Positions 20,583 through 62,161 of a DNA stretch of 64,000 nucleotides are shown here, one piece after another. Each line of letters starts with the position of its first letter. Position 1 is the stretch's first letter. Below the pieces are notes generated by a model. It saw nothing but the letters and a program-made list of their open reading frames with translations, had not been told where the DNA came from and searched no databases. The DNA comes from Pegea sp. RAD2-039 (lineage: Eukaryota; Chordata; Thaliacea; Salpida; Salpidae): positions 585,742 through 649,741 of the forward strand of contig JAQGEQ010000081.1 in NCBI GenBank assembly GCA_034620365.1, given 5' to 3'. The position numbers and the translations under genes are program-made.

Positions 20583-22701
20583 ATGACAGTGGATGACCGA
20601 TACTTCTTGAACAACTGGGATCTGCTCAAAAAAGCAATCCAACAAATTCAAAACAAAAACGAGGGTAGTCTTAGGTTTGAAGAAATTTTTAGGAATGCGT
20701 ACATGATGGTTATTCATGAGCATGGCGAGAAGTTGTACAATGGATTGAGAGAGGTGGTCACTGACCATCTTCGTCTAAAGGTGATTGGTTGTTGGAATTT
20801 GGGTCGATCATTTTTATAGTTTATTTGGCAAAGCTCACATCAAAAGATGTTTCTTATAAATATTTTCTAAATAATTGGCCACCTATTAGGTCCTAACCTA
20901 GACAGACACTAGCTGGACGTTGATGCCACTGTCCCAGCTGATAGTCATCGAACATCGGGTGTAATTGGGTGGTTCTGTTTGTCTAAAATGACTTTTAGAG
21001 ATTTATTTAGTGAAAAAAACTCATTTTAATTCAGGTTAGTGTTGATGTGATTGCTTCACTGAAGAACAACTTCCTGTCCACACTGAACGCTGCTTGGGAA
21101 GACCATCTAACCTGCATGGTAAAGATCAGCTACACCATGACGCTTATGGTCAGTATCTTTACCTACATGTTGATCTTCTCACATATTTTTCATAAAGGAT
21201 CGAGTTTATGTGTCTCAAAATAACGTTGATAATGTTTATCATCTGGGGTTAAAACTCTTTCGAGATGAAGTGATCCGCCACAAGGAGATAGGAAGTTATC
21301 TTGAAGAAGTGCTTCTAGATCTCGTAGCTCGCGAACGAAAGGGGGAAGTTGTTGACAGGTAGATGACTCTAGAGTGTTTTAAACATCTTTCTAAACATCT
21401 TCTACTTTCAGAGGTTCTATCAGAAGCGCTTGCATGATGCTCACGACTTTATCGCTAAATAACCGAGACGTTTACGAGCAACAATTTGAGATCGCTTTTT
21501 TGCAGCAGTCGGTTGAATTTTATAGAGTAAAAAATCCTCCTTAAGAATCATAAACATTTCTAATTTAATTATCATTTGTAGTTGGAAAGCCAGAAATTGT
21601 TAGCTGAAAACAGCACTTCTGTCTACATCAATAAAGTTGAAGCTAGAATCGAAGAGGAAGTCGAAAGAGCGCGTTATTATCTTAATCCAATGAGCGAACC
21701 AGCTATAATATCTGGTACCTAGACACCCTCATCATCATCGACCAGCTTCAAATTTGTTTTTTTGATTCAGTTCTTGAAAGCGAGCTGATCCAGAAGCACA
21801 TGCGTACCATAGTTGAGATGGAAAACTCTGGAGCTGTTCACATGTTAAAGAATGATAAAATAGAGGGCTTGTTGGATTTCTCCAACCACATAAGTTAAAT
21901 ATAAAACTGGTTTTTGTTTACAGATCTTCTTTGTATGTACAAGTTGTTTGAAAGAGTTCCTGAAGGTCTTTTGACTTTGAAGGATTGTGTGAGTGTGTAC
22001 CTTCGAGAGCAGGGCAAGGCTCTTGTTGAAGATTGTAGTCAAAAGTCTGCAGTGGATTACATCCAGGTACTTCTTTCTATTTATCATCTAACCTTTTAAC
22101 TTTCAACCTTGTAGAGCTTGCTGGACCTCAAGGATCGTATGGATGACTTTTTGACTAAATCATTCAAAAATGATAATATCTTTAAGAAGATGATCGGGGG
22201 TGACTTTGAATGGTTTGTTAATCTCAACCCGAAGTCACCAGAGTACCTCTCGTTGTTTATTGATGATAAACTGAATAAAGGCGATAAAATGGTTAGTTTC
22301 AAATAACCCGGTGCCCTCATAGTCATTCCGATCTTCCTAGTTATCTGAACAAGACGTTGAAAGCGTCCTGGAAAAGTCAATGTCGTTATTTCGCTTTCTG
22401 CAAGAAAAAGATGGTTTTGAGCGCTACTACAAACAGCATCTCAGTAGACGTCTTCTCACCAACAAAAGTATCTCAGATGACTCTGAGAAAAACATGATCG
22501 CCAAATTGAAGGTTTGTTTACTTTTTTTATCAACTACGTCATCAATCGCGAAACGTCATCGAATTTCAGACTGAATGCGGATGCCAGTTCACCAGCAAAC
22601 TCGAAAGTATGTTCAATGAAATGAAATTCTCCATCACAACCAACGAGGACTTTAAGCGTCACATCACCGACAACTCCGGAATAAAGGATTTTTCTTTGTA
22701 A
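20583..22701 (+). CDS. CUL3: CUL3-like cullin, C-terminally truncated, copy A (10 exons, 479 aa)
   Basis: Cullin-3 is the scaffold of BTB-CUL3-RBX1 ubiquitin ligases. Exons are 20583-20780, 21035-21148, 21198-21358, 21412-21526, 21582-21714, 21771-21866, 21924-22066, 22115-22291, 22341-22511 and 22570-22701, and they join in frame throughout. Conserved runs include [91 protein letters not shown] and [15 protein letters not shown]-contact positions matching human L52, F54, E55 and Y62 are kept, while Y58 reads Phe and Y125 reads Leu. The protein ends at TAA after GIKDFSL, near human residue 500 of 768, so the RBX1-binding and WHB/neddylation parts are missing. The ATG directly follows a TTTTCTAG acceptor, so an upstream exon may exist. 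Intron 6 has a GC donor. It is either a truncated gene or a partial pseudogene. Confidence 0.85.
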
Positions 22702-22737
22702 TTTAAATAGATAGATGAAATAACATTTTTTTATAAA

Positions 22738-22777
22738 ATCGACGCTGCAACAGAAGATTAAGAAGTCGAATTATGAG
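22738..22777 (+). pseudogene. Possible remnant of CUL3 neddylation-site exon, copy A
   Basis: Shortly after the CUL3 stop, one frame reads IDAAT and, after a one-base frame slip, KIKKSNYE, then a stop. This resembles the IEAAIVRIMKSRKK segment around the conserved neddylation Lys of cullins. Copy B reads RIKKSKYE. If real, the exons between the truncation and this point were deleted. The match is short and needs a frameshift, so a chance resemblance is possible. Confidence 0.3.
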
Positions 22778-23246
22778 TAGTGGTTTATTGTTGAAGACAG
22801 TTAATGAAGTTGTTCTAGAGATCAATTAGAAAGTTACGGATGATTTTATCAGAGTTTATAAATAATGACAATATTTTTGTAAACAAACTTTATAGAAATT
22901 ATAATTTATATCAATTAAATAAAAAGCTTAATAAATGCTACTTTATATTTAAAAAGAATATACTGGTTTATAAACGGTTAGCAACTTTCAATTTTAACTA
23001 GTTTGAAAAACTACTCGACTGTAAACGCAAGGCAAATTAAACTTATGTAAGAAAGTTTATCCTGTTTCTATTCAACCTGATTACTACTATTTAAATAACT
23101 AAATAAAAACAATACTGGAAAACGAAAAAAAAGACAATTCGGTGAAAATTCTTTAATTTTAGAAAGTAATAACTTTTTGCTTGATCCATTTACAATTAAT
23201 TTAGTCTAATTGAAAGCTTATTAGATTAAGAGATATAATATCTTTC

Positions 23247-23492
23247 TTGAGATCTATTTCGATCTTTACCTTATTTTTTGTGATGATCCAAGGTGTTTAT
23301 TTTATAAAAGTCGTAAATAATCTTAAATCAAATAAACAAATAAAGCATGAGGTCATTGAAACACATTTAGACGTTTTCATTAACTGGCTAACATATAAGT
23401 TTTTGGTTTCAACTAACTTTCTAATATTATACAAATGTACAAATGATTGCCAAATTAATGACGTCATAATTGCTGATAGTAAAAACACGTAG
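23247..23492 (+). CDS. Hypothetical small ORF, possible secreted protein, copy A (81 aa)
   Basis: I do not recognise this frame. It starts with a hydrophobic stretch after a basic residue (MRSISIFTLFFVMIQG) that looks like a signal peptide and has a Cys pair near the C-terminus. It lies about 550 bases past the CUL3 stop. The copy at 62671-62916 is equally open, with two amino-acid changes and one silent change. The opposite strand is open too, and the region is AT-rich, so support is weak. Confidence 0.15.
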   Translation: MRSISIFTLFFVMIQGVYFIKVVNNLKSNKQIKHEVIETHLDVFINWLTYKFLVSTNFLILYKCTNDCQINDVIIADSKNT

Positions 23493-24340
23493 TCACGGTT
23501 CAGTAATTTTAATTTGTAAATAAAACAAAAACAAAACTACAAATTAAAATGAATTTAATGATCATGAACTCTACAGATAAAAAAAGCATCAAATTAAAAG
23601 AAAGAAATGAAGAATCTTTAATCAGAAATATACATCTTATATTTAAAATAAACGTTTTTAGTAACAACATCTAATTAAATAGTTAAATAACTATGCCAAT
23701 AAATAATAAATCATAATCACAATATACACAAAGTACTATAAAATTTATACAGAGAAAGTTGTTAATCTATTTATGAATAAAAGAAAGTTGGTTTGGAAAA
23801 AGAGATAGACACAAGAAATTTAATCGAGCGTACCTTAATCAGTGAAGATAGAAAAGAGACAGAAGAGTTGAGACTTTTAATGAGTTTATTTGATTCTAAA
23901 CTGTTTTGTTTGTTTGTAAATTAGTTCTACAAAAACTCAGTAAAAACTCAATTTTATAAACTGGCGATCTCAAAACATCTGAACCAAATATTAAAATTAA
24001 ACAGAATAATTGCATAATTTCCATTTCATTTATGATATAAAGTATTAATCGATAAGTTATTTAGTATCTAATTAATTTGATTAAGATTTTTTCATATTTC
24101 TCTACTACTAGTAGTGTTTATGTATTACACAAATAGTTTTCACGACAATCAGCATGGACATATTGGTTAATTAACATTTGTTGATTAGAATTAACTGATG
24201 ATTAGGGTTGATAGTTAATATTTACTTCATTCATATGATTTTTTGTAGACTGAGATTAAAAAGGAATTATTTCAAATGTGAGTTGATCAATAAAGATGAA
24301 GTGATTTCCTTCACTTCATTCACAAATTCTCGTCTTCACA

Positions 24341-24505
24341 AGACTTTGCGGGCTGGATTCTGAGCTGCCAATTCATAGATCAGTTTTCTACAGTGTGTAG
24401 TGCAGTTTGAAGTTTTGAAGAATTGCAACATAATAGCTTGATATCATCTGCATACACAAACACTCTGACATCATCTACTGCTACTAGTCTTCTGATGACG
24501 TCTTG
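24341..24505 (-). pseudogene. LINE reverse transcriptase fragment, copy A
   Basis: On the minus strand this reads RT sequence homologous to 17394-17560, including VFVYADDIKLL. It has a stop in place of the Trp of the ENWS motif, so it is dead. At 24505 it is cut off by the minisatellite. The partner at 63765 continues further, so the LINE predates the segmental duplication. Confidence 0.85.
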
Positions 24506-25563
24506 GTGCTAGTGGTTGTTGCTGGTTTCTAATGGTTTTTGCTGGCTATTAGTGGTTCTTGCTGGCTGCAAGTGGTTGTTGCTGCTTTGAAGTGGTTGTT
24601 GCTGGGTGGTATTGTTTGTTGCTGCCTGCTAATGGTTGTTGCTGGTTGCAGTGGTTGTTGCTCCGTGGTATTGGTTGTTGCTGGGTGGTATTAGTTGTGG
24701 CTGGCTGCTAATGGTTGTTGCTGCTTTGAAGTGTTTGTTACTGGTTATTGATGGTTGTTGCTGTTTGGTAAAGATTGGTAGTGATTGTTGCTGGTTGCTA
24801 GTGGTTGTTGCTGGGTGGTATTAGTTGTTGCTGGTTGCTAGTGGTTGTTGCTGGGTGGTATTGGTTGTTGCTGGTTGCTAATAGTTGTTACTGAGTGGTA
24901 TTGGTTGTTGCTGGTTTCTAATGGTTTTTGCTTTCTACTAGTGGTTGTTGCTGGCTGCAAGTGGTTGTTGCTGCTTTGAAGTGGTTGTTGCTGGTTTATA
25001 ATGGTTGTTACTGGTTTCTAATGGTTGTTACTGGTTGGTAGTGATTGTTGCTGGGTGCTAGTGGTTGTTGCTTGGCGGTATTGGTTGTTGCTGGTTTCTA
25101 ATGGTTTTTGCTGGCTACTAGTGGTTCTTGCTGTCTGCAGGTGGTTGTTGCTGCTTCGAAGTGGTTGTTGCTGGTTGCTAATGGCTGTTGTTGGTTGGTA
25201 GTGGTTGTTGCTGGCTGCTAATGGTTGTTGCTGGTTGCAAGTGGTTGTTGCTGCTTTGAAATGGTTGTTGCTGCTTCGAAGTGGTTGTTGCTGGTTGGTA
25301 ATGGTTGTTGTTGGGTGCTAATAGTTGTTGCTAGTTGCTAATGGTTGTTGCTGGTTGCTAGTGTTTGTTGCTTGATGGTATTGGTTGTTGCTTGGTGCTA
25401 TTGGTTGTTGCAGGCTGCTAGTGGTTGCTGCTGGTTGCTAGTGGTCGTTGCTCGGTGGTATTGGTTGTTGCTTGGTGCTATTGGTTGTTGCAGGCTGCTA
25501 GTGGTTGCTGCTAGTTGCTATTGGTTGTTGCTTGGTGGTTTTGGTTGTTGCTGGCTGCCAGTG
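24506..25563. repeat. Minisatellite, 20-bp unit, about 53 units
   Basis: A head-to-tail array of a 20-base unit close to GGTTGTTGCTGGTTGCTAAT, with variant 3' halves (GGTGGTATT, TTTCTAAT, CTTTGAAGT). Variants recur in ordered groups, so there is higher-order structure. The plus strand is G+T-rich and nearly free of C outside GCT. The period is not a multiple of three, so the 62- and 78-codon open frames in it cycle through all frames and are not genes. It separates the LINE fragment from the zinc-finger block. Confidence 0.95.
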
Positions 25564-28350
25564 GTATCGAGTTCGGAATAGATGATTATTAACGAATTTA
25601 ATTTTTTACCAGTTTACACCACAAACTTTATTATACAAACACTATACTCCATTTCTCATAATTGAATAGCTTTGAACGAATTTGGAGTTGAATAAATTTC
25701 AACAAAATTCAATTAAAATTACCAAGGAGATATGCGGTCATAATGCTAAATTTATTTTTTTAAACTCAATTTGATATTCAACTTCTGGACTAAAACTTTG
25801 TATTAAATAATATTTTGAAACTTATTTAGTAACCAAATATACTTAAAAGTAACTTTTAAAGTGACTTTTTAAAGATTAGATTAACTCTTCTTAGGATTTT
25901 TTTTAACAAAAAGTCGATTTTGTAATAGTAAATAGCCATAAGATTTTATATAAAAATTAACAACTTAATGTCTGTTTTATATTAAGAGTAGCTTATTTGA
26001 CTTTTGTGAATCACGAAATTTAGTAATTTTTTTATTTTACTTATAAAAACAGACACAAAAATAATTAAGTTTATTATAAAAACATAATCTTCCTCATTAT
26101 AAACAACAAAAATTCGACATCAATTTTGTGCTAGCAAGTTTAGCTGTTATGAAGTTTAAATGATTAGTAAATATATTGTTAGAAAACATATAATATAAAA
26201 ATTTTTGCTTCTATGAATAGAATGACAAAACATTTAAGAAGTTTAGAAGTTTTCTTTTAACTCGAAATTTGTTAAATACTTTTCTGTCTTTTCAAAAATT
26301 TATCTTATCTTTCTTGACTTAGGTAGAGCTCCATAATGAGGCTGGTAAATTTTAGATTTGATATCAAAAAAATTGGATCATCTTATATTAAATTTCTTTA
26401 GGTATCTCTATTACTAACCAAAAAATTTTCTGTGTGAACTTACTTTGTAAAATTTTATCTTATCATAGTCTAATCAAAAACAAAACGATCAACCATTGTT
26501 TGTACATACCGCTGTCAAAAGTATTTTTAAAAATTCTTTTAAAAGTTCAGGAACAAAAAGTGAAGGAACTAACCACACATCTTTAAAAAAAGTAATCTTC
26601 AGAATCGTTGAAAAATAATTTGAATAAATTGTTTACGGATTTTAATCAAATTGGCGTTTTATGAATAAGAATGTTTATTTTTAAAAAAGTTATTCAGGAA
26701 AATTCTAATCAACTTTGACTTTTATACGTACTTTAATGACAAAATAGATGTGTTTTGATTAAAATTGTGCAAATGATCTATTGAACAGACTTAATAAAGT
26801 GAGTTATTTCATGACGATTAATAGTTGACTTCTGAGAAAATCTTTTTCCACATACATCACACTGGAATGGCTTTTCACCGGTGTGAGTTCTTTCATGAAT
26901 ACCAATAGTTGACTTCCGAGTAAATCTTTTTCCACACACCTCACACTGGAATGGCCTTTCACCGGTGTGAGTTCTTTCAAGATTAGCAAGAGATGATTTT
27001 TGAGAAAAGCATCGAAGGCAAACAGCACACTCGAAAGGCTTTTCACCAGTGTGAGTTCTTTCATGAGACTTCAGAATTGATTCAAACTTAAATCTTTTCT
27101 CACATACAAAACATTCAAACTTTGCCTCTGCACTACCTTGAGATGATAATTTTTTCTTGTTACTTTCGTTTCCTTCTCGCTTAGTTTGTAAATTAGACTT
27201 GTCAGTAGTCTTCATACGATACCACATCAGTCTCTGTTTAGGATATTCAACATTTAAGTTTGATGATTTTCTTTCCTGGTTAATTGCATTGTTTTGTCTT
27301 TCATCCATATTAAAGAAATTGTAAATTTTTTTATAATCCCTATGTTCTTTTAAGGGGAAAACTGAAAGTTGTTCCATCGAAAGAAATTTTTTTGAAAATT
27401 CACAAACTATTAAAATTAAAAACAGTTTAATACATAAGTATGCTTATTCTTTAATTGTTTTTTTTAACAATATGTTGCAAGTTTGTAAAGTTATTCTAAT
27501 AACAAAAATAAAAACATTTTTAAGCATTTTACTAAATAGTTAAATCTTAATTAAATAATAAGAAACGAAACCCTAAGCTTAAAACTAATACAAAATAAAC
27601 ACAAATTAAACAATGATAGAGTATAGTTTGCACTCTGTTTTCAAAAGTAGATTATCTCATTTGAAGGTCAATGAAAGCTTTTAACAATATCCATAAATAA
27701 AGAAAACATTTTCAACACGTTTACAGTTTTACTTTCCTGAATTGATAATTTGATTTGACTTTTGTGAATGTTTTTTTCTGTAAAATCATTTGTAATCTAG
27801 CTTATAGCTTATTTTGATTTACTTCTGTGAAACAATAATTCTCATTTTTTAAAATAATTTTTTTCATTTTAATAAGCAAGCGATATACATATTACTTGTG
27901 ATGAATTATTATATCTGGATTATAAATAAATTCGAACGTTTTGGTTTGGATACCTAACATCTTTTATGAAAGTAAAAACTATGGTGTATAAAAATACAAT
28001 TAGCGGGACATTACATTCCAATATACAGATAAATTCTGTCAAACTGACCTCAGATCAATTCTCTCAAACTCAATTGAGTAATCTCAGTCTTTAGATAATG
28101 GTTTTCAACAGAAATAACTTTTAAATTTTACTAGTAAATTTTGTACGGACAATACATGTAATATAAAATATTAAAATTATTCTTCCTAAATATGTTATTT
28201 TAGGATTTTCTAAACTTTCTCGTTCAAAACACAATACAATTTAGATTATAGTTTATTTATGTATAACCTTAAACTTATTCAAATAGAATGTTTTATCTCT
28301 AATATAACTAGAAAGCAAATTGCAAACTATATTAAGAAAATCACATCATT
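25564..28350. repeat. Duplicated zinc-finger block, copy of 9026-12060
   Basis: Starts immediately after the minisatellite at GAGTTCGGAATAGATG and follows 9026-12060 to about 28350, with a zinc-finger gene in the same place and orientation. The 3' and 5' flanks are far more alike than the number of fingers. Confidence 0.85.
26778..27308 (-). CDS. C2H2 zinc-finger protein, four fingers (176 aa)
   Basis: Family member of 10240-11022 with the same 65-residue basic N-terminal region and FIKSVQ tail but only four fingers (from C66, C94, C122, C150). Finger 2 has Leu at residue 110 in place of its first zinc-binding His (SSLANLERTH), so it probably does not fold normally. The frame is open 69 bases further upstream (to 27377), adding MEQLSVFPLKEH and more. 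I choose the inner MDER start because the upstream part is out of frame in the sister gene. Probably nuclear DNA-binding; target unknown. Confidence 0.8.
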   Translation of the reverse strand: MDERQNNAINQERKSSNLNVEYPKQRLMWYRMKTTDKSNLQTKREGNESNKKKLSSQGSAEAKFECFVCEKRFKFESILKSHERTHTGEKPFECAVCLRCFSQKSSLANLERTHTGERPFQCEVCGKRFTRKSTIGIHERTHTGEKPFQCDVCGKRFSQKSTINRHEITHFIKSVQ

Positions 28351-29225
28351 TATCAACAAAAGTAAACTTTGAAGGTAAATTATAAAGATTCTAAAACTTT
28401 TTGTTGAATTTCTTAAACAAAAGATTTTTTTCTAACGGAAGAAAAAAACATAGCTGAAAACTGACAGCTATAACTGTTGTTTGTTTTGACTTTTATAGCT
28501 TTTTAGATAAGAAAATGATTTGTTCATCATGGAAAGTAATCTAAAAGATAAACTTTTGCTTCGTATTCATTTCTTATGTTTATAATTAAAAACAATCTTA
28601 AAGCAGACTAATCATTAATGACAGAAGATGTCGATGACAATTGTAATAGTATTATTAACTTATTTTAGAAATTATATTAAATTTGTTCTAGTATATCTTT
28701 GACATGTAATTCATTAATAAGATTTAATTTATTAGTCAATAATACGATTGTCAGTAAAAAAATAAGGAATTAAACAGTATAAAATTAATTCATTAAGAGC
28801 TAAGTGCTACAGTTTAATATCGAATCATACTAAAGAGAAAAATTCTGGTCTTAAAATGGTTTGTCAGAATGAGAAATCGATTTAAAAAAATATATGTTTT
28901 TACCAACAGCGACAGCTAGCGGATGTTGGGATTTACAAATAACTTGTTTGATTTTTAAGAAGCAAAAAAAGATTAAACTAAACCAAAAACAAACAACTCG
29001 CTTGATTTTGTTATTACTGAACGTTTGTAGAGAAAATCAAATCAGCCTTTAAATTATTTGCTGATATTTTATGTTAAATTAATGCAATTAAAATAATTTT
29101 CCACACGTAGTAGATGTAACCTTTTGACAATTTCTTCAATAGTTCCTTTTTAATTTAAAATACACATTTAGTCGGCAAAATTTATATTTTAGAATAGTTA
29201 GTGAGTAGACAAAAGTTGAAACTTT
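28351..29225. repeat. Repeat block like 5640-6510 and 56330-57200
   Basis: Joins the zinc-finger 5' flank at about 28350 and runs to the CUL3 fragment. It has the GC-rich core at about 28905. It ends at AAGTTGAAACT, where its relatives continue with GCCAAGGGC. No gene. Confidence 0.75.
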
Positions 29226-29927
29226 GTCTAAAGGTGATTGGTTGTTGGAATTTGGGTCGATCATTTTTATAGTTTATTTGGCAAAGCTCACATCAAAAGA
29301 TGTTTCTTATAAATATTTTCTTAATAATTGGCCACCTATTTGGTCTTAACCTAGACAGACACTAGCTGGACGTTGGTGCCACTGTCCCAGCTGACAGTCA
29401 TCGAACATCGGGTGTAATTGGGTGTAATTGGGTGGTTCTGTTTGTCTAAAATGACTTTTAGAGATTTATTTAGTGAAAAAAACTCATTTTATTTCAGGTT
29501 AGTCTTGATGTGATTGCTTCACTGAAGAACAACTTCCTGTCCACACTGAACGCTGCTTGGGAAGACCATCTAACCTGCATGGTAAAGATCAGATATACCA
29601 TGGCGCTTATGGTCAGTATCTTTACCTACATGTTGATCTTCTCACATCTTTTTCATAAGGGATCGGGTTTATGTGTCTCAAAATAACGTTGATAATGTTT
29701 ATCATCTGGGATTAAAACTCTTTCGAGATGAAGTGATCCGCCACAAGAAGATAGGAATTTATCTTGAAGAAGTGCTTCTAGATCTCGTAGCTCGCGATCG
29801 AAATGGGGAAGTTGTTGACAGGTAGATGATAAAACATCTTTCTAAACATCTTCTACTTTCAGAGGTTCCATCAGAAGCGCTTGCATGATGCTTACGACTT
29901 TTTTGCTGAATAACCGAGACGTTTACG
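29226..29927 (+). pseudogene. CUL3: CUL3 fragment, copy C
   Basis: Contains the last 8 bases of exon 1, intron 1, exon 2 (29498-29611), exon 3 (29661-29821) and the start of exon 4 (29863-29927). It then breaks off after GAGACGTTTACG. Intron 1 has a 10-base tandem duplication (GGTGTAATTG twice). The intron 2 acceptor AAG has become AGG, so correct splicing is lost; the nearest AG would shift the frame. Intron 3 is shorter by 12 bases. Exons show several amino-acid changes. It is a dead partial copy placed between unrelated repeats. Confidence 0.9.
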
Positions 29928-32900: not shown

Positions 32901-33371
32901 TAGTAATTTGTATTAAATATTTTATTACAATTAAAAATCTATTTTTTTGAATTAGAATACATTAATAAGATGTATTTTATTTGTCAATGATACCATTGTC
33001 AGTTAAACAGTCAAAATTCAAATCTCTAAGAGCTAAGTGCCACAGTTTAATAACAAACTGTACTAAAAAAAAATTATTGTTTTGAATTGATTTTTCAGAA
33101 TAATTGTTCTGATCGACAATAATTTAGATGTAGCCGTTAATCAAAACATAAATTTAATTTAAATACAAGCTTCAACTTAATATTTGTAAATTTTTTCTGG
33201 AAAAGAATTTTTAAACTTTTATTTTTAGAAAACATTAGATTGTTTATAAAAATATATAAAATAAATAAATTTGCTTAAACATTCTGTTAAATTCTATGTT
33301 TTTCGACTAAATAAAAAATATCTTTTATAAGAATTACGAAGAATCTAATAATATCATAAAATCTGATCTTC
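29928..33371. repeat. Mosaic of repeat blocks
   Basis: Bases 30240-30480 resemble 43940-44160; 30540-30830 is the forward version of sequence inverted at 1-300 and 40261-40560; 31020-31480 resembles 8300-8830; 31585-32160 follows 49738-50320; 32160-33000 follows 15700-16515; 33000-33371 follows 36230-36660. Core motifs lie at about 30734, 31768 and 32257. Bases 29928-30240 show no relative I could find. No genes. Confidence 0.65.
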
Positions 33372-33532
33372 TTTTTCACCAGTGTGAGTTCTTCCATGAC
33401 TGTTAAGATATGACTTTTGAGAAAAGCATCACAGGCAAACAGCACACTCGAAAGGCTTTTCACCAGTGTGAGTTCTTTCATGAGACTTCATTTTTTTTTC
33501 TGATTGAATCCATTGTTTTGTCTCTCATCCAT
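33372..33532 (-). pseudogene. C2H2 zinc-finger gene remnant, start fused to two fingers
   Basis: Minus-strand sequence begins with the family start MDERQNNGFNQK, then a deletion removes most of the N-terminal region and part of finger 1. The initial frame stops after 14 codons. In the finger frame one finger follows, with a stop where the family has Arg (CAVCL then stop), and a second finger ends at a junction with repeat sequence. The 5' flank continues normally at 33533. Confidence 0.85.
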
Positions 33533-38200: not shown

Positions 38201-38450
38201 AATTTTAAATTTTAGAATTATTAAAAGCAGAAAAAAATATTTAGTTGAAAATGGAAACTATAATTGTTGTCGGTTTTGGCTTATATAACTTCTTGAATGA
38301 GAAAATGATCTGTGTCTATCATACAAAACTGATCTAAACATTTAAGCTTTAGCTTCCAATTCATTACTTTATTTTGGTTAGTTTCAATTTTTGTAATAAA
38401 TGTTATTTAAAAAGTTTATAATCTATATATAATATATATAATCTATATCA
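35261..38450. repeat. Mosaic of repeat blocks
   Basis: 35590-36200 follows 15700-16515 with a core motif at about 35660; 36200-37100 follows 33000-33370 and 18000-18500; 37190-38400 follows 2018-3830. An AT dinucleotide-rich run lies at 38420-38450. Short open frames (35613, 37500, 37558, 38000) are not conserved in the relatives. Confidence 0.65.
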
Positions 38451-42170: not shown

Positions 42171-42617
42171 CTATTGAACAGATTTAATAAAGTGAGTTTT
42201 TTCATGACGATTAACATGTGACTTCTGAGAAAATCTTTTTCCACACACCTCACACTGGAATGGCCTTTCACCGGTGTGAGTTCTTTCATGATTAGCAAGA
42301 GATGATTTTCGAGAAAAATATCGAAGGAATATCATACACTGGAAGGGCTTTTCACCAGTATGAATTCTTTCATGAGACTTTAGGTTTGACTTCAACTTAA
42401 ACATTTTCTCACATACAAAACATTCAAACTTATCCTCTGCACTACCATGAGAGGATAGTTTTTTCTTATCAGTTTCCTTGTCTTCTCGCTTAGTTTGCAA
42501 ATTATGCTGGTCAGTAGTCTTCATACGATACCACATCAGTCTCTGTTTAGGATATTCAACATTTAAGTTTGTTGATTTTCTTTCCTGGTTAATTGCATTG
42601 TTTTGTCTCTCATCCAT
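42171..42617 (-). CDS. C2H2 zinc-finger protein, three fingers (148 aa)
   Basis: Shortest open member of the family. Same N-terminal region and FIKSVQ tail, with fingers starting at C66, C94 and C122. Finger 2 has Phe at residue 97 in place of its second Cys (CMIFLRYF), so only fingers 1 and 3 keep all ligands. Its second linker is TGERPF, which in the seven-finger gene precedes finger 5, so loss of inner fingers by unequal exchange is likely. With two usable fingers it may bind DNA poorly; it may be decaying. Confidence 0.75.
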   Translation of the reverse strand: MDERQNNAINQERKSTNLNVEYPKQRLMWYRMKTTDQHNLQTKREDKETDKKKLSSHGSAEDKFECFVCEKMFKLKSNLKSHERIHTGEKPFQCMIFLRYFSRKSSLANHERTHTGERPFQCEVCGKRFSQKSHVNRHEKTHFIKSVQ

Positions 42618-43250
42618 ATTAAAAAAAGGTAAACTTTATAAAATCCCTAGGTTCTTTAAAGAGGAAAACTAAAAGTTGTTAATAAACAATAATGAACAAA
42701 ATTTATTTGAAAGTTCTAAAACTATTAAATTTAAAAACCATTGAATCCATTAGTAGGCTTATTCTATAATTGTTTTTTTTTAACAATTTGTTGCAAGTTT
42801 GTAAAATTATTTTAATAACAACAATAAAAAATATCTTGTAAGCATTTTACTAAATAGTTAAACATTTAACATTAAAAACATTTAAATAATTGCTAAACAT
42901 TTAAATATTAATAGGATGATAGCAAACAAATCTTAAACTTTAAAACTAATGCAAAGTAAAACAAAAATTAAACAATTATAGAATATAGTTTGCACTCTGT
43001 TTTCAAAAGTAAATCATCTCATAGGAAAGTCAGAGAAAGCTTTTAACAATATCTATAAATAAAGAAAAGCTTTTCAACACGTTCATATTTTTGCTTACTT
43101 GAATTGATAACTTGATTTGATTTTTGTGAATGTTTTTTGCTGTAAAATTATTTGTAATATAACATGTAGCTTATTTTTACTTAACTGTTGGATACATTTA
43201 TTCAAATTCTTTTTCAAATAATTTTCCATTTAAATAAGCAAGCGATATAC
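42618..43250. repeat. Zinc-finger 5' flank, shortened copy
   Basis: Follows 11023-11600, more diverged than the other copies, and ends near the GCAAGCGATATACATATTAC segment at about 43238-43260. Confidence 0.7.
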
Positions 43251-51050: not shown

Positions 51051-52830
51051 AGGTTCCAAAAGAACAAGACAACACCAACATGAATGTTCGTTCAATGTAA
51101 TGTATTTCAATGTAATGTAAAACTATTGTATAAAGTAATCTCAATCTTTAGTTTATCGTTTTCAAAGGAAATATATTTTGAATTTTACAAGCAAATTTTC
51201 ATAAGGAGAATACATGTAATATAATATTAAAATTTTACTTCCTAAAAATGGTATTTTACGGAAATTTAATTTCAAATAAAATTTTTTGTTTGTTTACGTA
51301 ATTTACTTTTTACAGAATTAACTTGAAGTTTTTTTAGTTAAAACAAATTGCATAACAACTAAAATATAGATAAATAAAAATGAATTTACTCTGTAAAAAC
51401 TCTTCAAAATTAGAATTTGTATTTTGATGTTAGATCAAATTTTTGGTATGAAATATTTATAAAATAATTAAAACTTTCACATTTTTTATCCAAAAACATT
51501 TTGAAATATATTTTGTAAATAAATAAAAAAGTTTAATATAAATACATTATTATCTTCATCTTATTTAACATAATTGTAGAATCAATTTTACGTTAGTAAG
51601 TTTAGCTGATTTAAAATTTGAAATTTTAGTAAATATATTATTAGAAAACAATTCAAATGAAATTTTTTGTCTCTATGTTCATGTAATTTACTTTTTACAT
51701 ACTTAACTTGAAGTTGTATTTAGTTATAACAAATTGCATAACAACTAGAATTTATAAAATTAAAAAAAATAAATATGAATTTACTTTGTAAAAATTCTTC
51801 AAAATTAGAATTTGTATTTTGATGTTGAAACAAATTTTTCAATGAAATATTTATAAAATAATCAAAACTTTCACATTTTTTTCCAAAACATTTTGAATTA
51901 AAATTGGTAATCAAATATACTTAAATGTAAATTGCAATTTCTATGAAAGAAAATAAACATAAGATAAAAGCAAGAAGTTATTACTAGATTTAATAAGTTT
52001 AGATGAAATGTAATAAAATATTAATACTTAAAAGCTAGTAGAAAGGTTTAGAGTTATCAAAAAAGTATTTCTCAAAATTAAAATATTGTTATTAGTTAAA
52101 ATTTATCTTTCTTATTTTATTTTGCTAATTGTGCTAAAACAGGAAAACAGTCAGTTAAATAATCTAAAATCAATTGTCTAAATTATATGTTCCATAGTTT
52201 AATATAGAGTTGCCTTTAGGAAAATCTTCTTGTTTTGAATTGACTCCTCAGTATAAGAAGTCAAATGAAGGATAGATAATTTAGCTTAAGGTCAACCGCG
52301 ACAACTAGCAGCTGTTCAAGTTTACAAATAATTTGACAAAAGTTTTTGAAATCAAAATTACTATAAGATTAAGATTTTTAACAAAAAATATTAATCTAAA
52401 ATGACAACTTGTTTGTTTTGCTGTTAACATATTGTTAACATTGTTAAATACATATACATATATTTGCTGCTATGTTTTGTTAAATAAAAAACAATTTAAT
52501 GATTGCCACGCGCAGTAGGTGTAAGATTATGCTAATTTCTTCAGTAATTTTCGTTAAATTTAAAATGTACTCCAACTCAGCAAAAAAGAATATTTTATAA
52601 ATTAAAAAATTAAAATTAGCCAAAGATATTGAGTTTGGAATAGATGATTATTAACGAAATCAATTTTTTTTACCAGTTTACACCACAAACACTAGATTAT
52701 ATGAAGCTTTTATATAATAATAAACTCAAACTAAACTCCACTTCTAATAAATACTTGGTATTGAACTAATTTGGAGTTGAATAAATTTCAACAGACTTTA
52801 ATTAATATTACTAAGGAGAGATATGATCAT
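51051..52830. repeat. Mixed repeats with a local tandem duplication
   Basis: Bases 51293-51520 and 51678-51905 are two copies of one sequence about 385 bases apart (both contain GTAATTTACTTTTTACA). 51975-52150 follows 3898-4070; 52150-52450 is like 31650-31880 with a core motif at about 52291; 52630-52830 is like 9028-9180. No gene. Confidence 0.6.
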
Positions 52831-53440
52831 AATGCTTTTATTTACACTTAAGTTTTACTAACTCAACTTTATTTTCAAATTCTGGATTATAATTTTCACT
52901 AGCAAAATTCAAAATTATTCTATGCACCTAGATTTTGTTGAATTATCTACAAAGGTACACTTTAAAAGATACACTAAAAGGTTCATAAGTCTGTTTTTGT
53001 TAGATCTTTTATACAAAAATTTGTTTCTAATGTAATGAAAACAATTAGTAAGTTCTGCAAAATAATTTTTACATTTTCAAAAACAATTTTCTTAAAAAAA
53101 TAATAATTATTTTTCGAATGTAAAAAATGTATAACCTTCATTATTTATGAATAATGATTGCTTAAATTTTCAATATAAAGTCAATCAATAAATAAATAGA
53201 TTTTTCCTAGAATACTTAATGAAGGTAATACAGCTTACAATGAATCTTCAATTGAATTGAATACTTCTTTAATTTCTAAATTGTTTAATCTAACTCCAAA
53301 AATAAGCTTTCAATAAAAATGCAAATTAATGCATAGATTCATGATTTTTAAAAGCTTTCATAAACATTTTAAGGAACTTAAGTGTTAGTTTTAAAACATT
53401 TATTTGTTATTATATATAAAAATAATAACATAATAATACA
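52831..53440. other. Low-copy AT-rich stretch
   Basis: Contains AT-rich sequence with only faint similarity to other blocks (52900-53000 recalls 32560-32680). I see no gene or structured element. Confidence 0.35.
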
Positions 53441-54286
53441 TATATTTTGTGTTCAACATTAATTTAGACGTAGTCTTTAATCAAAATGTAAATAATGTTT
53501 AAATAGAAACTTCAACCCAATATTGATTAAATTTTTATATATTCTTCATTATTTAAATTTATATAAGATAAAATAGAGCGGAATTTATTTATGATTCAAA
53601 ATTCATTTCTGGAAAAGAATTTTTAAACTTTTGTTTTTAGAAAAAATTAGATTGTGTATAAATATACATAACATAAATAAATTTAATTAAAAATTCTATT
53701 AAAGCATTTTTCGACTAAATAAAAATTATCTTGTAAGAATCACAAAGAATTTAATAATATCATAAAATCTCATCTCTTTCTACATGTATGTTAAAAAGAT
53801 GAACAAATACAACCACCGGAAAATAAAATATTCAGACATTTTTTACATTCACAGTATTTGTGAACCTAATTAGAAACCGGCTTTAATAATAATTGATAAT
53901 CAACAAAATTAACAATGTTTAGAATGTCTGTGTTTTTAACTTCAACTGAATATATCAGTTTCAAAATGTTAGTATTAGGAGAAGAGCTTTCTGAAACTGG
54001 TTTACATGAAAAGTAAAATTCTTAAAACAAATTTTTAGAAATAAAGTTTCTTATTTATTCATTATATATTTTAAAATATAATTGTCATAAATCTAAGTTG
54101 AAACAGAGAAAGGTAAATCTCATGAGAGTATAAGACAAAAATAAGTTTTATATAAATGACAAAATTATTTTTCTTGATTTGTTTTGAATTATTTTCACTA
54201 AAAGTGCTTTGTACAGTTTGTATTTTATGAAATATTTTCCAAGGTTTTAATAATATTATCCTCCACGCTTTGATTTCAAAAATCAA
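53441..54286. repeat. Repeat block like 13650-14450 and 46605-47412
   Basis: Follows both relatives closely and ends at about 54286, where sequence homologous to 3898 begins in mid-block. No gene. Confidence 0.7.
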
Positions 54287-55868
54287 GTTATTACTAGATT
54301 TATTGAGTTAAGATGAAATGTACTAAAAAATTAATAATTTAAAGCAAGTAGAAAGGTTTAGAGTTATCAAAAAAGTATTTCTACAAAATAAAATATTTTG
54401 ATTAGTTTAAAATTACCTTTCTTATTTTTTTGCTAATTGTGCTAAAACACAAAAGCAAGCAAAATTATAAATCCAAATGGTATTTTATTTTCAAATAGAA
54501 TTTGTTTTTTAATTTGTTAAGAAATTGATGAATTAAAGGTCTGAAATTTGAATTTCACCAAAACTAACATGCTTTTAAAAAATTATGCTTTTAATTCAAC
54601 TGAATGTTTCAGTTTCTAAATTTGCTCATAATACTCAATCATATTAACCTTTCTTTCAACTTGTGAAAATAATCTTATAAATAAGCTTGTTTTAGTCTCA
54701 CATTTGTGGGATAAAATAGAAAAAAATAAAGTTACGATAAATCTAAAATAAGTTTTTTTTTAGTAAGTTAATTGTTTTTAAAATTTGTTAAGAAACTGAT
54801 GAAACAGAAATCTGAAATTTATAATTATAAATACAAATCTTATGTGTTACGTAGTATAAAGTATAGTAAGATGTCATTATCCAGTTTATTTACTGATTTT
54901 ACATATTTTATTAGAATTATAATCTTTTATAGTAGTTTCTATCGGTTTTTGATAAAAAGTAGCGTTTCTGTTTTTTGTTTGTAATATAAACAACTTACTT
55001 CAATAAATTGAAGAAATCTACTAATTTGTTTTAAAAAAGAAAACAAAAATTAACTAATTACAAATTTCTGAGAAAAAGAAACTTGTTTATGTAATAAATT
55101 TATTGAGCAATTTTTCATAAATCTGTTATATATCTTTTGATAAATCAATAACAGTTTGGTAACTTCTGACTAGTGCTTCTTATATGTAAATAAGGAGCTA
55201 AATTTAACAAAAAATCAAACTTTATATTGACTAGTTGTGTAAATTTCATCAGGATGGTTTTGTATAAATAGTTCTTCTTGACTAACCTCTTACAGTAGTT
55301 TTGAAAAAAAACCTAAAAAGGTTCAGCTGCAAAGAAACAACCATACAAAAGTAGAATGACAATTAATTAATTTTAATAATAATTGATAAACAATAAAACC
55401 AAAAATCTGTTAAAAATCTGTATTTTTAAATTCAAAAAAATGTTTCAGCTGACTTTTATGTAAAATACTGAAGTTAGTATTCCAAATAGAAAAAAAATCA
55501 TGCTACTCCCAGTAAAAACCGAAAATGATGATATTTGGTAATCAACAATGAGAAGCTAACTTTAATTCAACTGAAGTTATCAGTTTCCAAATTCAACTTT
55601 CAAGAATCGAGTGATAAGAAATGTCAGTTGAAAAAATCCAGCCTTATAAGTAAAGATGTTTCAATCTCATGTTTGTGGTTTACAACAAACAAAAGTAAAC
55701 TTCATGAAAGAAAAAAAAAATATTAAAAATTAATTAATAATAGTATTAGCAATAATATAAATAATAATAATTATTTATTAATATGCATCCATATTATTTT
55801 TTAGACGTTGAATTGTAGTTTTCGATTTATACTTAAAAATAAAGAAAAATAACCTTTTTAGTAGACTA

Positions 55869-55903
<35 letters not shown>

Positions 55904-57397
55904 TATATAAATGCGAAGGAGGGTGCCTAAAGAGAGCACATCTCACTAATACACATTCTCAGGAGTTTTTATGGTTTTTCTCAGGAGTTTTATATGTCTC
56001 CACCTGGGGTCGAACCCGGTACTTCCTAGCTAAATGTACCTTGTAGCTAGGTGTAGTGACCGCTTCGCCACCAAGCAGGACATATAATTGAAAATTAATA
56101 TCTGTTTGCAATATTAATAATTGAAAAGAATGTATGTGTTAAAGAGAAACTAATGTAATCAAATACTGCTTGTCTGAATACAGTTAAAATTAGATACAGC
56201 AAAAGCATAGAACAAAAAATAATGAAATTAATTTTTTAATAATTTTCCGATTCAAGTTGTTATCAATTTGTAGATTATATTTTTACTAGCTAGAATCGAA
56301 TAAGTTTGCAACAACTAGCGCATTTGCTAAATTATCAACAAAAGTAAACTTTGAAGGTAAATTATAAAGATTCTAAAACTTTTTGTTGAATTTCTTAAAC
56401 AAAAATTTTTTCTAACGGAAGAAAATACATTGTTGAAAACTGACAGCTATAACTGTGGTTTGTTTTGACTTTTATAGCTTTTTAATCAGATAATTATTTT
56501 TTCATGATGGAAACTGATCTAAAAGATAAACTTTTGCTTCGTATTAATTTTTAATGTTTATAATTAAAAACAATCTTATAGCAGACTAATCATTAATGAG
56601 AGAAGATGTCGATGACAATTGTAATAGTATTAATAATTTGTTTTAAAAATTTTATTAGAATTTGTTAAAGTATATCTTTGAAATGTAATTCATTAATAAG
56701 ATTTAATTTATTTGTCAATAATACGATTGTCAGCACAAAAGTAAGGATTTAAACAGTCTAAAATTATTTCATTAAGAGCTAAGTGCCACAGTTTATTATC
56801 GAATCATACTAAAGAAAAAAATTCTGGTCTTAAAATGGTTTGTCAGAATGAGAATTCGAATTAAAAACATATATATTTTTGCAAACAGCGACAGCTAGCG
56901 GATGTTGTGATTTACAAATAACTTGTCTGATTTTTAAGAAACAAAAAAAGATTAAACTAAACGAATAACAAACATCTCGCTTGATTTTGTTATTACCGAA
57001 CGTTTGTATAGAAAATCAAATCAGTCTTTAAATTATTTGCTGATATTTTATGTTAAATTAATGAAATTAAAATAATTTTCCACACGTAGTAGATGTAATC
57101 TTTTGCCAATTTCTTCAATAGTTCCTTTTTAATTTAAAATACACACTTAGTCAGCAAAATTTATATTTTAGAATAGTTAGTGAGTAAACAAAAGTTGAAA
57201 CTTGCCAAGGGCTTTGAGCTCTGAAAAATTTATTTATAACGGTTTCAAGGTTTTACCAGTTTACACCAAAAACAGTAGATTATGAGAAGCTTGTAAATAG
57301 CTTTATACTGACTGAAAGAGATTAGGTACAACGGTTTGATTTGTTTGATTGACTAAATATCATATTAATTTGAAGTTGATTGAATTTCAACAAAACT
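54287..57397. repeat. Repeat block like 3898-6700, interrupted by a SINE
   Basis: Collinear with 3898-6700 except for the SINE at 55873-56086. It ends at CAACAAAACT (57397), where segmental duplication copy B starts. Core motif at about 56885. Confidence 0.8.
55873..56086 (-). mobile_element. tRNA-derived SINE with LINE-related 3' tail
   Basis: Read on the minus strand, the head (from about 56081) has a Pol III A-box TGGCGAAGCGG and B-box GGGTTCGACCCC, separated by a perfect 8-bp hairpin (CCTAGCTA/TAGCTAGG). The body holds a short tandem repeat (CTCAGGAGTTTT twice on the plus strand). The 3' end (55909-55961) matches the LINE 3' end at 16536-16588 at 48 of 53 positions without gaps. It finishes in an AT run and 28 A residues (plus-strand T at 55873-55900). 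ATATA flanks both sides, and the relative at 5391-5400 is the empty site. The pure tail suggests a recent insertion. Confidence 0.9.
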
Positions 57398-59525
57398 CAC
57401 AGAGAATCTAATAATATCATGAAATCTGATTTCTTGCTTCAAATAATGTAAAAACATGAATAAATACAACCACCAGAAAATAAAATATTCGAACATTTTT
57501 TACACTCACAGTACTTGTTAATCTAATTAGAAACCGGCTTTAATAATAAATGATTATCAACGAAATAAGCAATCTGTATAATGTCTGTGTTTTAACTTCA
57601 ACTGAGTACATCAGTTTCAAAATGTTAGGTTTAACAGAAAGGCTTTCTCAAACTAGTCTAAATGGAAAGACTTTGACCTTATAAATAAGCCAGTTTTAGT
57701 TTCATATTTGTGGGTTGAAACAGAAAAAAGTAAAGTTCTTAAAAACAAATTTTTAAAAATAAAGTTTCTTATTTATCCATCATATATTTTAAAATAGATT
57801 TATCTTAATTACAAATTGAAACAGAGAAAAGTAAATTTTACAAGAACAAAAGAAAAAATTAGTATTATATAAATGACAAAATTATTTTTCTTGATTTGTT
57901 TGGAAATATTTTCATTAAAAGTGCTTTGCATAGTTTTTATTTTATGAGATGTTTTCCAAAGTTTTAATAATATTCTCGTCAACGATTTAATTTCAAAATT
58001 CTGGTTTTTGCAACAGCTTGAATTAAATTTTCAAGCAAATATGAAAAATTTTCTATCATATATTTTTCAACATTTACCACTGATAGTTGATAAATATCTA
58101 GTTTAATTGTTAAAAGTTCATATTTATCTAGCTTTATATCTTTATAAATTGTAAAAGTGAGTTTGAAGCAGCTAAATGCAAGCAAACATTTATTTATTGT
58201 ATATACTTACGTTCAGAAGTTTTGTTTATGGTTATTTAGATTGTTTTCTTATATATTGTTTTTTTTTTGCTTTTTTGTATTTAAGTACTTTTTGACGTTC
58301 ATTAATTTTAAAAAGACAGAATTATTTCATGATCTTATAAGTACCAAAATACATCAGTGGTAGTTTTGTGTAAAAATACTTTTAGGATTTTTTTTTTGTT
58401 TATTTATATGAGTCTATTGTGTATATAGAAGGAAAAAATGTTTTGCAGTCGTAATGTCAGCTTTTTGAATCATTTTAAAATTTCGTCCAGCTACCATTAC
58501 TTAGAATGGTTTTTTCAAATTCATTTTCAAAATAATAATTCATTTCATTTTCATAACTTTTTTGCGTACAAAATCATTTCTGCTTCAAAATTTAATTTAA
58601 ATTTCAAGGTATTACTAGGTTTGATCAACATTTTAAATTCAAAAACTTTCATGTAAGCTTTTTCTAGATCCGTTACTTAAGCTAAAAGCGCAACGTTAAG
58701 TTTTCTGATTGCAAAAGTGTTTATGTTATCTCCTTGTGGTTTAAAGACAAGATAAAAAATTTATGTTTCTTTTTCAGTTGTTAGATAAATCTGTAGCCTG
58801 CTACAGGATTAGCTTAATAATAGAACATTTTGTTTTAAGTATATGAGATCTATAGTTTAAGCAATAGTACAGTGCTAGGTTTTCTGAATGTAAGGTTATG
58901 TATCTTTTTGATTATAACAGACTAAATAACTTTTTGAATATTTAATGCTGTTGAAAAAGAGTGTAGTTAGCTAAACTTGGCTGCTACTGCTTTTACTTGT
59001 TATATTTTAATTATTGTTCTTGTTTTACTATTTAAAGCACCAGAAAATTTAAGTTTTTTTTTAGTATCTTTCTAAAGGAATACATTTTTAGCTTAAAAGT
59101 AATTTTTTGTGCATATTAAAAATATTGTTTAAACGTGCTTAAATGATCTTAACAATTGTTTTGCGCGTGACTGAGGCACGATCGCTTCATGTTTATGAGG
59201 CTGGTTGCATAGGGTGTTTTTTCTCGCTTCTACTTTCGATGTACGACGTCATGATTTCTTTGTTTATGCAGACAAACACCTACATACTTTGAAACAAACA
59301 CACGAAGCAGCCACATGTTTCATCGAGATTCAAACTATTCAGACACTAATAAAGTGATAGAAATTTTTATCATTTTTGATTTCAATTTTGTTGTACTGGT
59401 TTAAATATAGTGGATTAAAGAATTTCATTTTTTGCTAAAATGTTGATAGTAATATACTGTTGATATTTTATTTGTAATTTGAAGTTAACTTGCTATGCTT
59501 ATAGTTTTAAATTAATTTTACATTT

Positions 59526-59639
59526 ATAGAGATTTTATTAAAGCTCTATCAAATATTAGAGTAGGAATTATAATTAGTTTTATAATTCAAACATTTGGTT
59601 TTCATCTATATATTAATAATTATATAAATCATTACATTT
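59526..59639. mobile_element. 114-bp insertion with 8-bp target duplication
   Basis: Absent from copy A, where TTACATTT occurs once. In copy B that 8-mer flanks both ends (59518-59525 and 59632-59639) of a 106-base AT-rich insert. I see no terminal inverted repeats or tail. It could be a small non-autonomous element or captured DNA. Confidence 0.7.
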
Positions 59640-60006
59640 TGTGATTTTCAGAAACTTGTGTTTTTTTACTTATTTTATGATAAACTTTTTTTTACAAACA
59701 TATTTAACCCATTTTTATATTTTTTTTCAACAAATTTCTGCAAAATGCGTTTTATCAAAGTTGAGTGAAAATATTTATAATAGAAATGAGGTGCTAACTT
59801 CAGTTTTCAGGCTTTTATAAGTTGAGCAGTTATAAACTTTCAGTCTAAGTTAGCCAGCTTATGTAAAAGGAAATCAACTTATTGGTTGATATGACATTTT
59901 TGATTCTCAAAAATTCTGTTTTTATTCACTATTTTCTTATTTTAATTTGATATAAAAATTTTCATACAAAGAAAATGAAAATATAAAATCTGATTTTTTT
60001 TTCTAG

Positions 60007-62125
60007 ATGACAGTGGATGACCGATACTTCTTGAACAACTGGGATCTGCTCAAAAAAGCAATCCAACAAATTCAAAACAAAAACGAGGGTAGTCTTAGGT
60101 TTGAAGAAATTTTTAGGAATGCGTACATGATGGTTATTCATGAGCATGGCGAGAAGTTGTACAATGGATTGAGAGAGGTGGTCACTGACCATCTTCGTCT
60201 AAAGGTGATTGGTTGTTGGAATTTGGGTCGATCATTTTTATAGTTTATTTGGCAAAGCTCACATCAAAAGATGTTTCTTATAAATATTTTCTAAATAATT
60301 GGCCACCTATTAGGTCCTAACCTAGACAGACACTAGCTGGACGTTGATGCCACTGTCCCAGCTGACAGTCATCGAACATCGGGTGTAATTGGGTGGTTCT
60401 GTTTGTCTAAAATGACTTTTAGAGATTTATTTAGTGAAAAAAACTCCTTTTAATTCAGGTTAGTGTTGATGTGATTGCTTCACTGAAGAACAACTTCCTG
60501 TCCACACTGAACGCTGCTTGGGAAGACCATCTAACCTGCATGGTAAAGATCAGCTACACCATGACGCTTATGGTCAGTATCTTTACCTACATGTTGATCT
60601 TCTCACATCTTTTTCATAAAGGATCGAGTTTATGTGTCTCAAAATAACGTTGATAATGTTTATCATCTGGGATTAAAACTCTTTCGAGATGAAGTGATCC
60701 GCCACAAGGAGATAGGAAGTTATCTTGAAAAAGTGCTTCTAGATCTCGTAGCTCGCGAACGAAAGGGGGAAGTTGTTGACAGGTAGATGACTCTAGAGTG
60801 TTTTAAACATCTTTCTAAACATCTTCTACTTTCAGAGGTTCTATCAGAAGCGCTTGCATGATGCTCACGACTTTATCGCTAAATAACCGAGACGTTTACG
60901 AGCAACAATTTGAGATCGCTTTTTTGCATCAGTTGGTTGAATTTTATAGAGTAAAAAATCCTCCTAAGGAATCATAAACATTTCTAATTTAATTATCATT
61001 TGTAGTTGGAAAGCCAGAAATTGTTAGCTGAAAACAGCACCTCTGTCTACATCAATAAAGTTGAAGCTAGAATCGAAGAGGAAGTCGAAAGAGCGCGTTA
61101 TTATCTTAATCCAATGAGCGAACCAGCTATAATATCTGGTACCTAGACACCCTCATCATCATCGACCAGCTTCAAATTTGTTTTTTTGATTCAGTTCTTG
61201 AAAGCGAGCTGATCCAGAAGCACATGCATACCATAGTTGAGATGGAAAACTCTGGAGCTGTTCACATGTTAAAGAATGATAAAAAAGAGGGTTTGTTGGA
61301 TTTCTCCAACCACATAAGTTAAATATAAAACTGGTTTTTGTTTACAGATCTTCTTTGTATGTACAAGTTATTTGAAAGAGTTCCTGAAGGTCTTTTGACT
61401 TTGAAGGATTGTGTGAGTGTGTACCTTCGAGAGCAGGGCAAGGCTCTTGTTGAAGATTGTAGTCAAAAGTCTGCAGTGGATTACATCCAGGTACTTCTTT
61501 CTATTTATCATCTAACCTTTTAAATTTCAACCTTGTAGAGCTTGCTGAACCTCAAGGATCGTATGGATGACTTTTTGACTAAATCATTCAAAAATGATAA
61601 TATCTTTAAGAAGATGATCGGGGGTGACTTTGAATGGTTTGTTAATCTCAACCCGAAGTCACCAGAGTACTTCTCGTTGTTTATTGATGATAAACTGAAG
61701 AAAGGAGATAAAATGGTTAGTTTAAAACAACCCGGTGCCCTCATAATCATTCCGATCTTTCTAGTTATCTGAACAAGACGTTGAAAGCGTTCTGGAAAAG
61801 TCGATGTCGCTATTTCGCTTTCTGCAAGAAAAAGATATTTTTGAGCGCTACTACAAACAGCATCTCAGTAGACGTCTTCTCACCAAAAAAAGTATCTCAG
61901 ATGACTCTGAGAAAAACATGATCGCCAAATTGAAGGTTTGTTTACTTTTTTTATCAACTACGTCATCAATCGCGAGACGTCATCAAATTTCAGACTGAAT
62001 GTGGATGCCAGTTCACCAGCAAACTCGAAAGTATGTTCAATGACATGAAATTCTCCATCACAACCAACGAGGACTTTAAGCGTCACATCACCGACAACTC
62101 CGGAATAAAGGATTTTTCTTTGTAA
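60007..62125 (+). CDS. CUL3: CUL3-like cullin, C-terminally truncated, copy B (10 exons, 479 aa)
   Basis: Same gene structure as copy A. Exons are 60007-60204, 60459-60572, 60622-60782, 60836-60950, 61006-61138, 61195-61290, 61348-61490, 61539-61715, 61765-61935 and 61994-62125, all in frame with GT-AG introns, including intron 6 where copy A has GC. It ends at the same TAA after GIKDFSL. By hand count there are 11 amino-acid differences and 8 silent differences from copy A. Several fall at positions usually conserved in CUL3 (LLNLKDR for [15 protein letters not shown] for [14 protein letters not shown] for LLTNKS). This points to weak constraint. It lacks the RBX1-binding and neddylation regions, so it cannot act as a normal ligase scaffold. 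Confidence 0.8.
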
Positions 62126-62161
62126 TTTAAATAAATAGATGAAATAACATTTTTTTATAAA

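Follow-up and report, generated by a model that had tools for sequence, protein, structure and literature searches.

The final 64 kb of a contig (JAQGEQ010000081.1, hereafter C92) in the genome assembly of the salp Pegea sp. RAD2-039, the 64,000 nucleotides that we call the window, carries two copies of a CUL3 gene that is cut off early. We found that they belong to a family of 12 assembled full-type copies descended from the species' own CUL3, all with the same ten-exon structure, truncated ahead of the RBX1-binding and neddylation parts, largely preserved in frame, and changed at residues of the surface that faces BTB adaptors. The interpretation that we favor, tentatively and with slightly less than even confidence, is that the family would be a multicopy, scaffold-dead CUL3 competitor with a shifted adaptor preference, which would be expressed, would bind adaptors, and would compete for them.

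Both genes lie on the plus strand, and each has ten exons that splice to 479 amino acids and a stop codon; from start to start they are 39,424 bases apart. The original prediction, two ten-exon CUL3-like genes of about 479 residues 39 kb apart, was exact, and the open frames and intact introns that it described are there. Its interpretation of the genes as a regulatory decoy is supported in part. All nine introns of copy B, and eight of the nine in copy A, are GT-AG; intron 6 of copy A has a GC donor (GC-AG). The two coding sequences differ by eight silent and 11 replacement codon differences. The gene models are as follows (the parent being the full-length CUL3 of the same assembly, locus L009):

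20583..22701, plus strand: copy A, CUL3 gene cut off early, ten exons, 479 amino acids (spliced model; homology to parent L009)
20583..20780, plus strand: copy A exon 1, corresponding to parent exon 2; begins at human Met23
21035..21148, plus strand: copy A exon 2; contains the altered BTB-facing helix alpha5 (human 118-125)
21198..21358, plus strand: copy A exon 3
21412..21526, plus strand: copy A exon 4
21582..21714, plus strand: copy A exon 5
21771..21866, plus strand: copy A exon 6, followed by the GC donor
21924..22066, plus strand: copy A exon 7
22115..22291, plus strand: copy A exon 8
22341..22511, plus strand: copy A exon 9
22570..22701, plus strand: copy A exon 10; CUL3 homology stops at ~22676, then a new tail, GIKDFSL, and stop
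60007..62125, plus strand: copy B, CUL3 gene cut off early, ten exons, 479 amino acids
60007-60204, 60459-60572, 60622-60782, 60836-60950, 61006-61138, plus strand: copy B exons 1-5
61195-61290, 61348-61490, 61539-61715, 61765-61935, 61994-62125, plus strand: copy B exons 6-10

Copy A covers positions 1-469 of the 620 in the Pfam Cullin model (PF00888) and residues 23-492 of the 768 of human Cullin-3 in the PDB (E = 3e-200). Its best PDB matches are Cullin-3 (669 bits), Cullin-4A (282), and Cullin-1 (191), and judged by these scores the family is of the CUL3 type, with Cullin-3 the nearest among the cullins. Searching the window with human CUL3 (tblastn, E up to 10) gave no match past human residue 491, and the final Cullin match in the 12 full-type copies stops at Pfam position 470-473 of 620. 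The RBX1-binding alpha/beta domain and the neddylated winged-helix end of a functional cullin-RING ligase scaffold are thus lacking, as had been predicted.

A DNA search of the 105.7-Mb assembly (GC content, 25%) with the copy A gene gave 18 candidate places, and all 18 were scored; counts of this kind are lower bounds. They comprise the 12 full-type copies (eight on C92, three on C134, and one on C96), four shorter copies (two on C203 and one each on C369 and C370), one fragment in the window, and the parent. The original prediction was right to call the gene duplicated and understated the extent, ten full-type copies lying outside the window besides A and B. There are ten distinct coding sequences among the 12, since copy B is identical to L017 and L012 to L013. 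A genome search for a full-length CUL3, which had been proposed as a check, found one on C278 (L009), with ordered tblastn matches from human residue 20 to 768; it is a possible target of competition. Its upstream first exon reads MSRPITKKDTKMRIRAFP and is followed by a gtaagt donor. Over the span 20481-22676, copy A and this gene have 82% DNA identity, exons and introns alike, and by this comparison the family is derived from the genome's own CUL3 on C278. The ten family exons have the structure of the species' own gene. Compared with full-length CUL3, the family keeps the exon layout and, in copy A, 66% identity to human residues 23-491; it differs in having no N-terminal extension, RBX1-binding domain, or neddylation site (nothing past residue ~492) and in its altered helix alpha5.

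The homology between family and parent starts ~100 bases upstream of parent exon 2 (at 20481) and ends at 22676, within one base of the border between parent exon 10 and intron 10. At this border the parent reads TCT/GTAAGC and the family TCC/GGAATAAAGG, which continues into GIKDFSL and a stop. The duplicate contains neither parent exon 1 nor any exon past exon 10; the N-terminal extension (residues 1-22) was not recognized in the family, where an unrelated 5′ exon is possible. Since the introns were copied along (all nine are kept in 12 of 12 copies), retrocopying is excluded, and the family is not a processed pseudogene. The original prediction had allowed for loss of the downstream exons through assembly error. 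We reject this as unlikely: the same novel downstream DNA is common to the copies, with at least 1,830 of its 1,845 bases present in 11 of the 12 and the first 930 in the twelfth. A viral or phage source was also considered: phage records contained no relative, and in viral contigs, searched with patterns built from this protein only, the two stretches that fitted a pattern do not encode one.

The frame of 479 codons is whole in 11 of the 12 full-type copies, the exception being L010, with one +1 and one −1 indel; among distinct sequences, nine of ten are open. Splice dinucleotides are kept in every copy, one donor (in copy A) being GC. On average, pairs of copies diverge by 2.05% in coding sequence and by 2.37% in introns; the values are 2.38% for downstream sequence, 1.6% upstream of 20481, and 3.1% in the short CUL3-derived stretch 20481-20582. 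No nonsense codon is present in the 12 copies, compared with ~7.5 expected, and the two coding indels, both in L010, compare with 24 in noncoding sequence (P = 0.003 for the deficit with all noncoding indels as the yardstick; P = 0.05 with introns only). We simulated neutral drift along the family tree (~119 substitutions), with L010 added as a tenth tip of assumed length. Under nonsense mutation and start loss, a mean of 2.46 sequences out of ten stayed open, and nine or more did so in one of 2000 runs; with either indel rate, this occurred in none of 2000 runs. We conclude that selection keeps the frame in most copies, with the choice of residues left loose. Plain decay of a pseudogene is rejected because nine open sequences out of ten were reached in a single one of those 2000 runs; stops and frameshifts are far below the neutral rate, and L010 alone is frameshifted. 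The original prediction had taken near-neutral change as an argument for decay: the missense changes are indeed near neutral, but neutral drift would have produced far more nonsense and frameshift changes than the copies carry. Variants could pass from copy to copy by gene conversion, which does not by itself favor open frames.

Between the family consensus and the parent, nonsynonymous divergence (pN) is 0.12 in exons 1-2 but 0.025 in exons 3-10, and synonymous divergence (pS) is 0.55 and 0.27, respectively. At 44 differing residues, human CUL3 agrees with the parent in 27, with the family in three, and with neither in 14; because human matches the parent so much more often, most of the polarized change lies on the family side. 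Leu52, Phe54, Glu55, and Tyr62, the last of which we take to be a BTB-binding residue of helix alpha2, are kept in 12 of 12 copies. Helix alpha5 reads MIRDILMYM in the parent, TIRVILLCM in the shorter class, and KIRHTMAHM among the family forms, and human positions 118, 121, 124, and 125 carry different changes in the family and short-class lineages. Along the branch between parent and family, human positions 118-128 have seven replacement steps at six codons and no silent step, whereas the rest of exons 1-2 has 18.5 replacement and 35.5 silent changes (P = 0.001, Fisher's exact test on rounded counts). We read the alpha5 pattern as constraint that was lost or changed, rather than as positive selection, which is unsupported at the interface: P is 0.13 for alpha5 (see below), and within the family the interface is unremarkable.

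According to published structures, the BTB interface of CUL3 consists mostly of alpha2 and alpha5, with Ser53, Phe54, and Tyr125 as named contacts (PMC6484134), and a tyrosine cluster lies on H2 and H5 at this interface (PMC10564622). The N-terminal extension of CUL3 is described as usually dispensable, yet raising affinity: the BTB protein A55 binds CUL3 23-388 at 5.3 nM and CUL3 1-388 at under 1 nM (PMC6484134). On the residues seen here, BTB binding by the family proteins is plausible, but weaker or re-specified, and it could be lost.

In the history that we favor, the intact CUL3 gene was duplicated at the DNA level from within intron 1 to where exon 10 ends. Exon 1, with the N-terminal extension, stayed behind, as did everything downstream of exon 10, with the RBX1-binding and neddylation parts; the cut end reads into the seven new codons and stop. 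The unit then multiplied to give the 12 assembled copies, eight of them on C92. In the action that we favor, proteins made from these copies would use cullin repeat 1 to dock on some of the BTB adaptors and, without the RBX1-binding part and the NEDD8 site, would keep those adaptors away from CUL3 ligases that are active. With alpha5 altered and the extension missing, binding in general would be weaker and the preference would shift, plausibly toward amplified BTB-Kelch proteins, and the many copies would permit a high dose of decoy. A bolder version, to which we give little credence, is one of conflict, in which a burst of BTB-Kelch genes would have been answered by a matching burst of scaffold-dead CUL3 with a rebuilt docking helix, the multicopy decoy silencing or rationing chosen adaptors.

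The genome has at least 212 BTB domain matches (150 of 412 candidates scored), many in tandem rows. Rows of BTB-BACK-Kelch genes occur on contigs C116, C97, C14, C81, C50, C182, C75, C336, and others (loci L029-L040). The arrays inspected consist of BTB-BACK-Kelch genes with a repeated exon structure, and the hydrophobic-x-Glu (phi-x-E) docking motif is kept in 14 of 15 second BTB exons from 12 chosen stretches. Expansion of MATH-BTB genes as the partner is rejected, there being one MATH match only and the inspected arrays being BTB-BACK-Kelch. Stops are held by ten of 15 BACK exon matches; they may be located before the true exon start, given that in L029 the BACK-exon stop is closely followed by an AG acceptor. 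The one link seen between the BTB arrays and the CUL3 copies is their presence in the same genome.

Several observations weigh against the favored interpretation. Missense change in the family is weakly constrained, if at all: the family tree, built from nine distinct open copies, has 82 replacement and 34 silent changes, an omega of 0.82 given a neutral ratio of 2.95 from the noncoding spectrum (P = 0.34 against 1, binomial test), and a codon model in IQ-TREE gives 0.79. In exons 1-2, pS relative to the parent is about double that of the later exons (values above), so age or gene conversion accounts for some of the 5′ divergence. We picked the alpha5 stretch after viewing the alignment, and seven replacements out of seven have a neutral probability of 0.13 (pN 0.26 vs. 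pS 0.57 in exons 1-2), while helix alpha2 (52-68), with 4.5 replacement and 9.5 silent changes, has no excess. All 12 copies have Arg in place of Ser53 and either Leu or His in place of Tyr125. BTB proteins are described as no longer bound by the CUL3 mutants S53A/F54A/E55A and L52A/E55A (PMC3401178); because Ser53 and Tyr125 are changed and such mutants fail, BTB binding may be gone. On the partner side, some array genes look broken (a stop interrupts the docking motif of one L036 copy, and the BACK match of one L037 copy is split), and among the matches listed, BTB occurs on none of the contigs with CUL3 copies.

The copies lie in a larger amplified block, whose outline in the window is as follows:

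18090..24504, plus strand: amplified block around copy A; stops just before a 20-bp minisatellite
57397..63928, plus strand: the same block around copy B (97.3% identical to the A block over 18090-20213 and 98.2% over 20206-24504)
24507..25565, plus strand: 20-bp minisatellite, 52.5 copies, at the 3′ edge of the block

The terminal ~164 bases of the block (24341-24504) are a dispersed repeat found on many contigs, with the minisatellite directly after it; the two may have driven the duplications. The shorter class (L020-L023) has the flank upstream of 20481 in common with the family and ends after exon 7; its four copies are 98.5-99.3% identical over 5-7.8 kb in five listed pairs. L020, in which each base was read, is dead, with a stop within exon 3 and one donor lost.

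This setting gives some weight to the idea, which we find doubtful, that the CUL3 piece is a passenger, riding in an amplifying block by the minisatellite, with no product that matters and frames open through recent copying. The flank that the copies have in common outside CUL3 extends over ~3 kb or more, the A block stops at the dispersed repeat and minisatellite, missense changes are near neutral, many other multicopy blocks fill the window, and some pairs are 99.9% identical. However, recency is accounted for in the simulation, where the ~119 substitutions predict ~2.5 open sequences out of ten against the nine seen, and decay is visible in the older, shorter class from the same source, as the stop and lost donor of L020 attest. 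That the protein is made and acts elsewhere is unlikely in our judgment. On this reading, the alpha5 change and Ser53Arg would abolish BTB docking, and a retargeted scaffold would act through cullin repeats 2-3, for example on non-BTB partners of CUL3. The far stronger conservation of exons 3-10 than of exons 1-2 between parent and family would fit this, as would replacements at six alpha5 codons with no silent change, but Leu52, Phe54, Glu55, and Tyr62 are retained throughout, the conservation of exons 3-10 may predate the shortening of the duplicate, and within the family these exons are as loose as the rest.

It is very improbable that the copies are an artifact of assembly, haplotigs or misjoined repeats of a single locus. 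L012 (at the right end of C134) and L013 (in the left part of C92) lie in opposite orientation with 99.9% identity over 8.3 kb, and this pair may be an allele, an inverted duplication, or assembly redundancy. Likewise, 58312-64000 of the window is 99.95% identical to L017, also on C92, over 5,690 bases, and copy B lies ~1.9 kb from the contig end; B may repeat L017 as an allele or through assembly, which leaves copy A unaffected. Such near-identical pairs make the copy number less certain, at about ten to twelve. Against an artifact as the source of the whole family, there are ten distinct coding sequences, the nine open ones differ pairwise by 10 to 46 bases, L010 has indels of its own, the total exceeds two alleles of one locus, and C92 carries seven distinct copies (A, B/L017, L013, L014, L015, L016, and L018).

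CUL3 fragments are in laboratory use as binding domains, and N-terminal constructs of CUL3 serve as dominant negatives. Plants have natural truncated cullin-like genes without a complete C-terminal half, which differ from the present family in belonging to another cullin class and in their low copy number. The laboratory CUL3 constructs contain the same half of the protein as the family: one of them, 23-388, begins at the same Met23 (PMC6484134), and another is a 1-427 deletion construct (PMC3401178). The family differs from these in being natural and multicopy, in reaching residue ~492 plus a new tail of seven residues, and in its changed BTB-facing helix; its action as a competitor is putative. 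No description of a natural truncated CUL3 family was found among the literature titles and starts of abstracts listed for the terms searched, which is not proof of absence. If the favored interpretation is true, a natural, amplified, frame-preserved version of such fragments would suggest that animals evolve scaffold-dead cullins to tune their ligases, and nature would have provided a test of the ways in which the CUL3-BTB interface can be re-specified, in a genome rich in BTB-Kelch genes.

One further piece of the gene is present in the window:

29222-29927, plus strand: third, partial copy, truncated on both sides; it contains the final few bases of exon 1, then exons 2-3, and the beginning of exon 4 (93.6% identical to copy A)

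Another cullin is present in two copies ~7.2 kb apart on C189 (L026 and L027). The window (1-64000) is a mosaic of many multicopy blocks with common junctions, for example near 2010, 15711, 45783, and 57397. Other amplified blocks carry multicopy open reading frames for C2H2 zinc fingers, measured from stop to stop, at 10240-11043 (267 amino acids), 26778-27443 (221 amino acids), and 42171-42635 (154 amino acids), all on the minus strand, with a further partial frame near 33373. The C2H2 assignment comes from a domain scan of 10240-11043, and the frames vary in their number of 84-base finger repeats. At 16675-17742, on the minus strand, an open reading frame of 355 amino acids with a reverse transcriptase domain (RVT_1) is a retroelement fragment.

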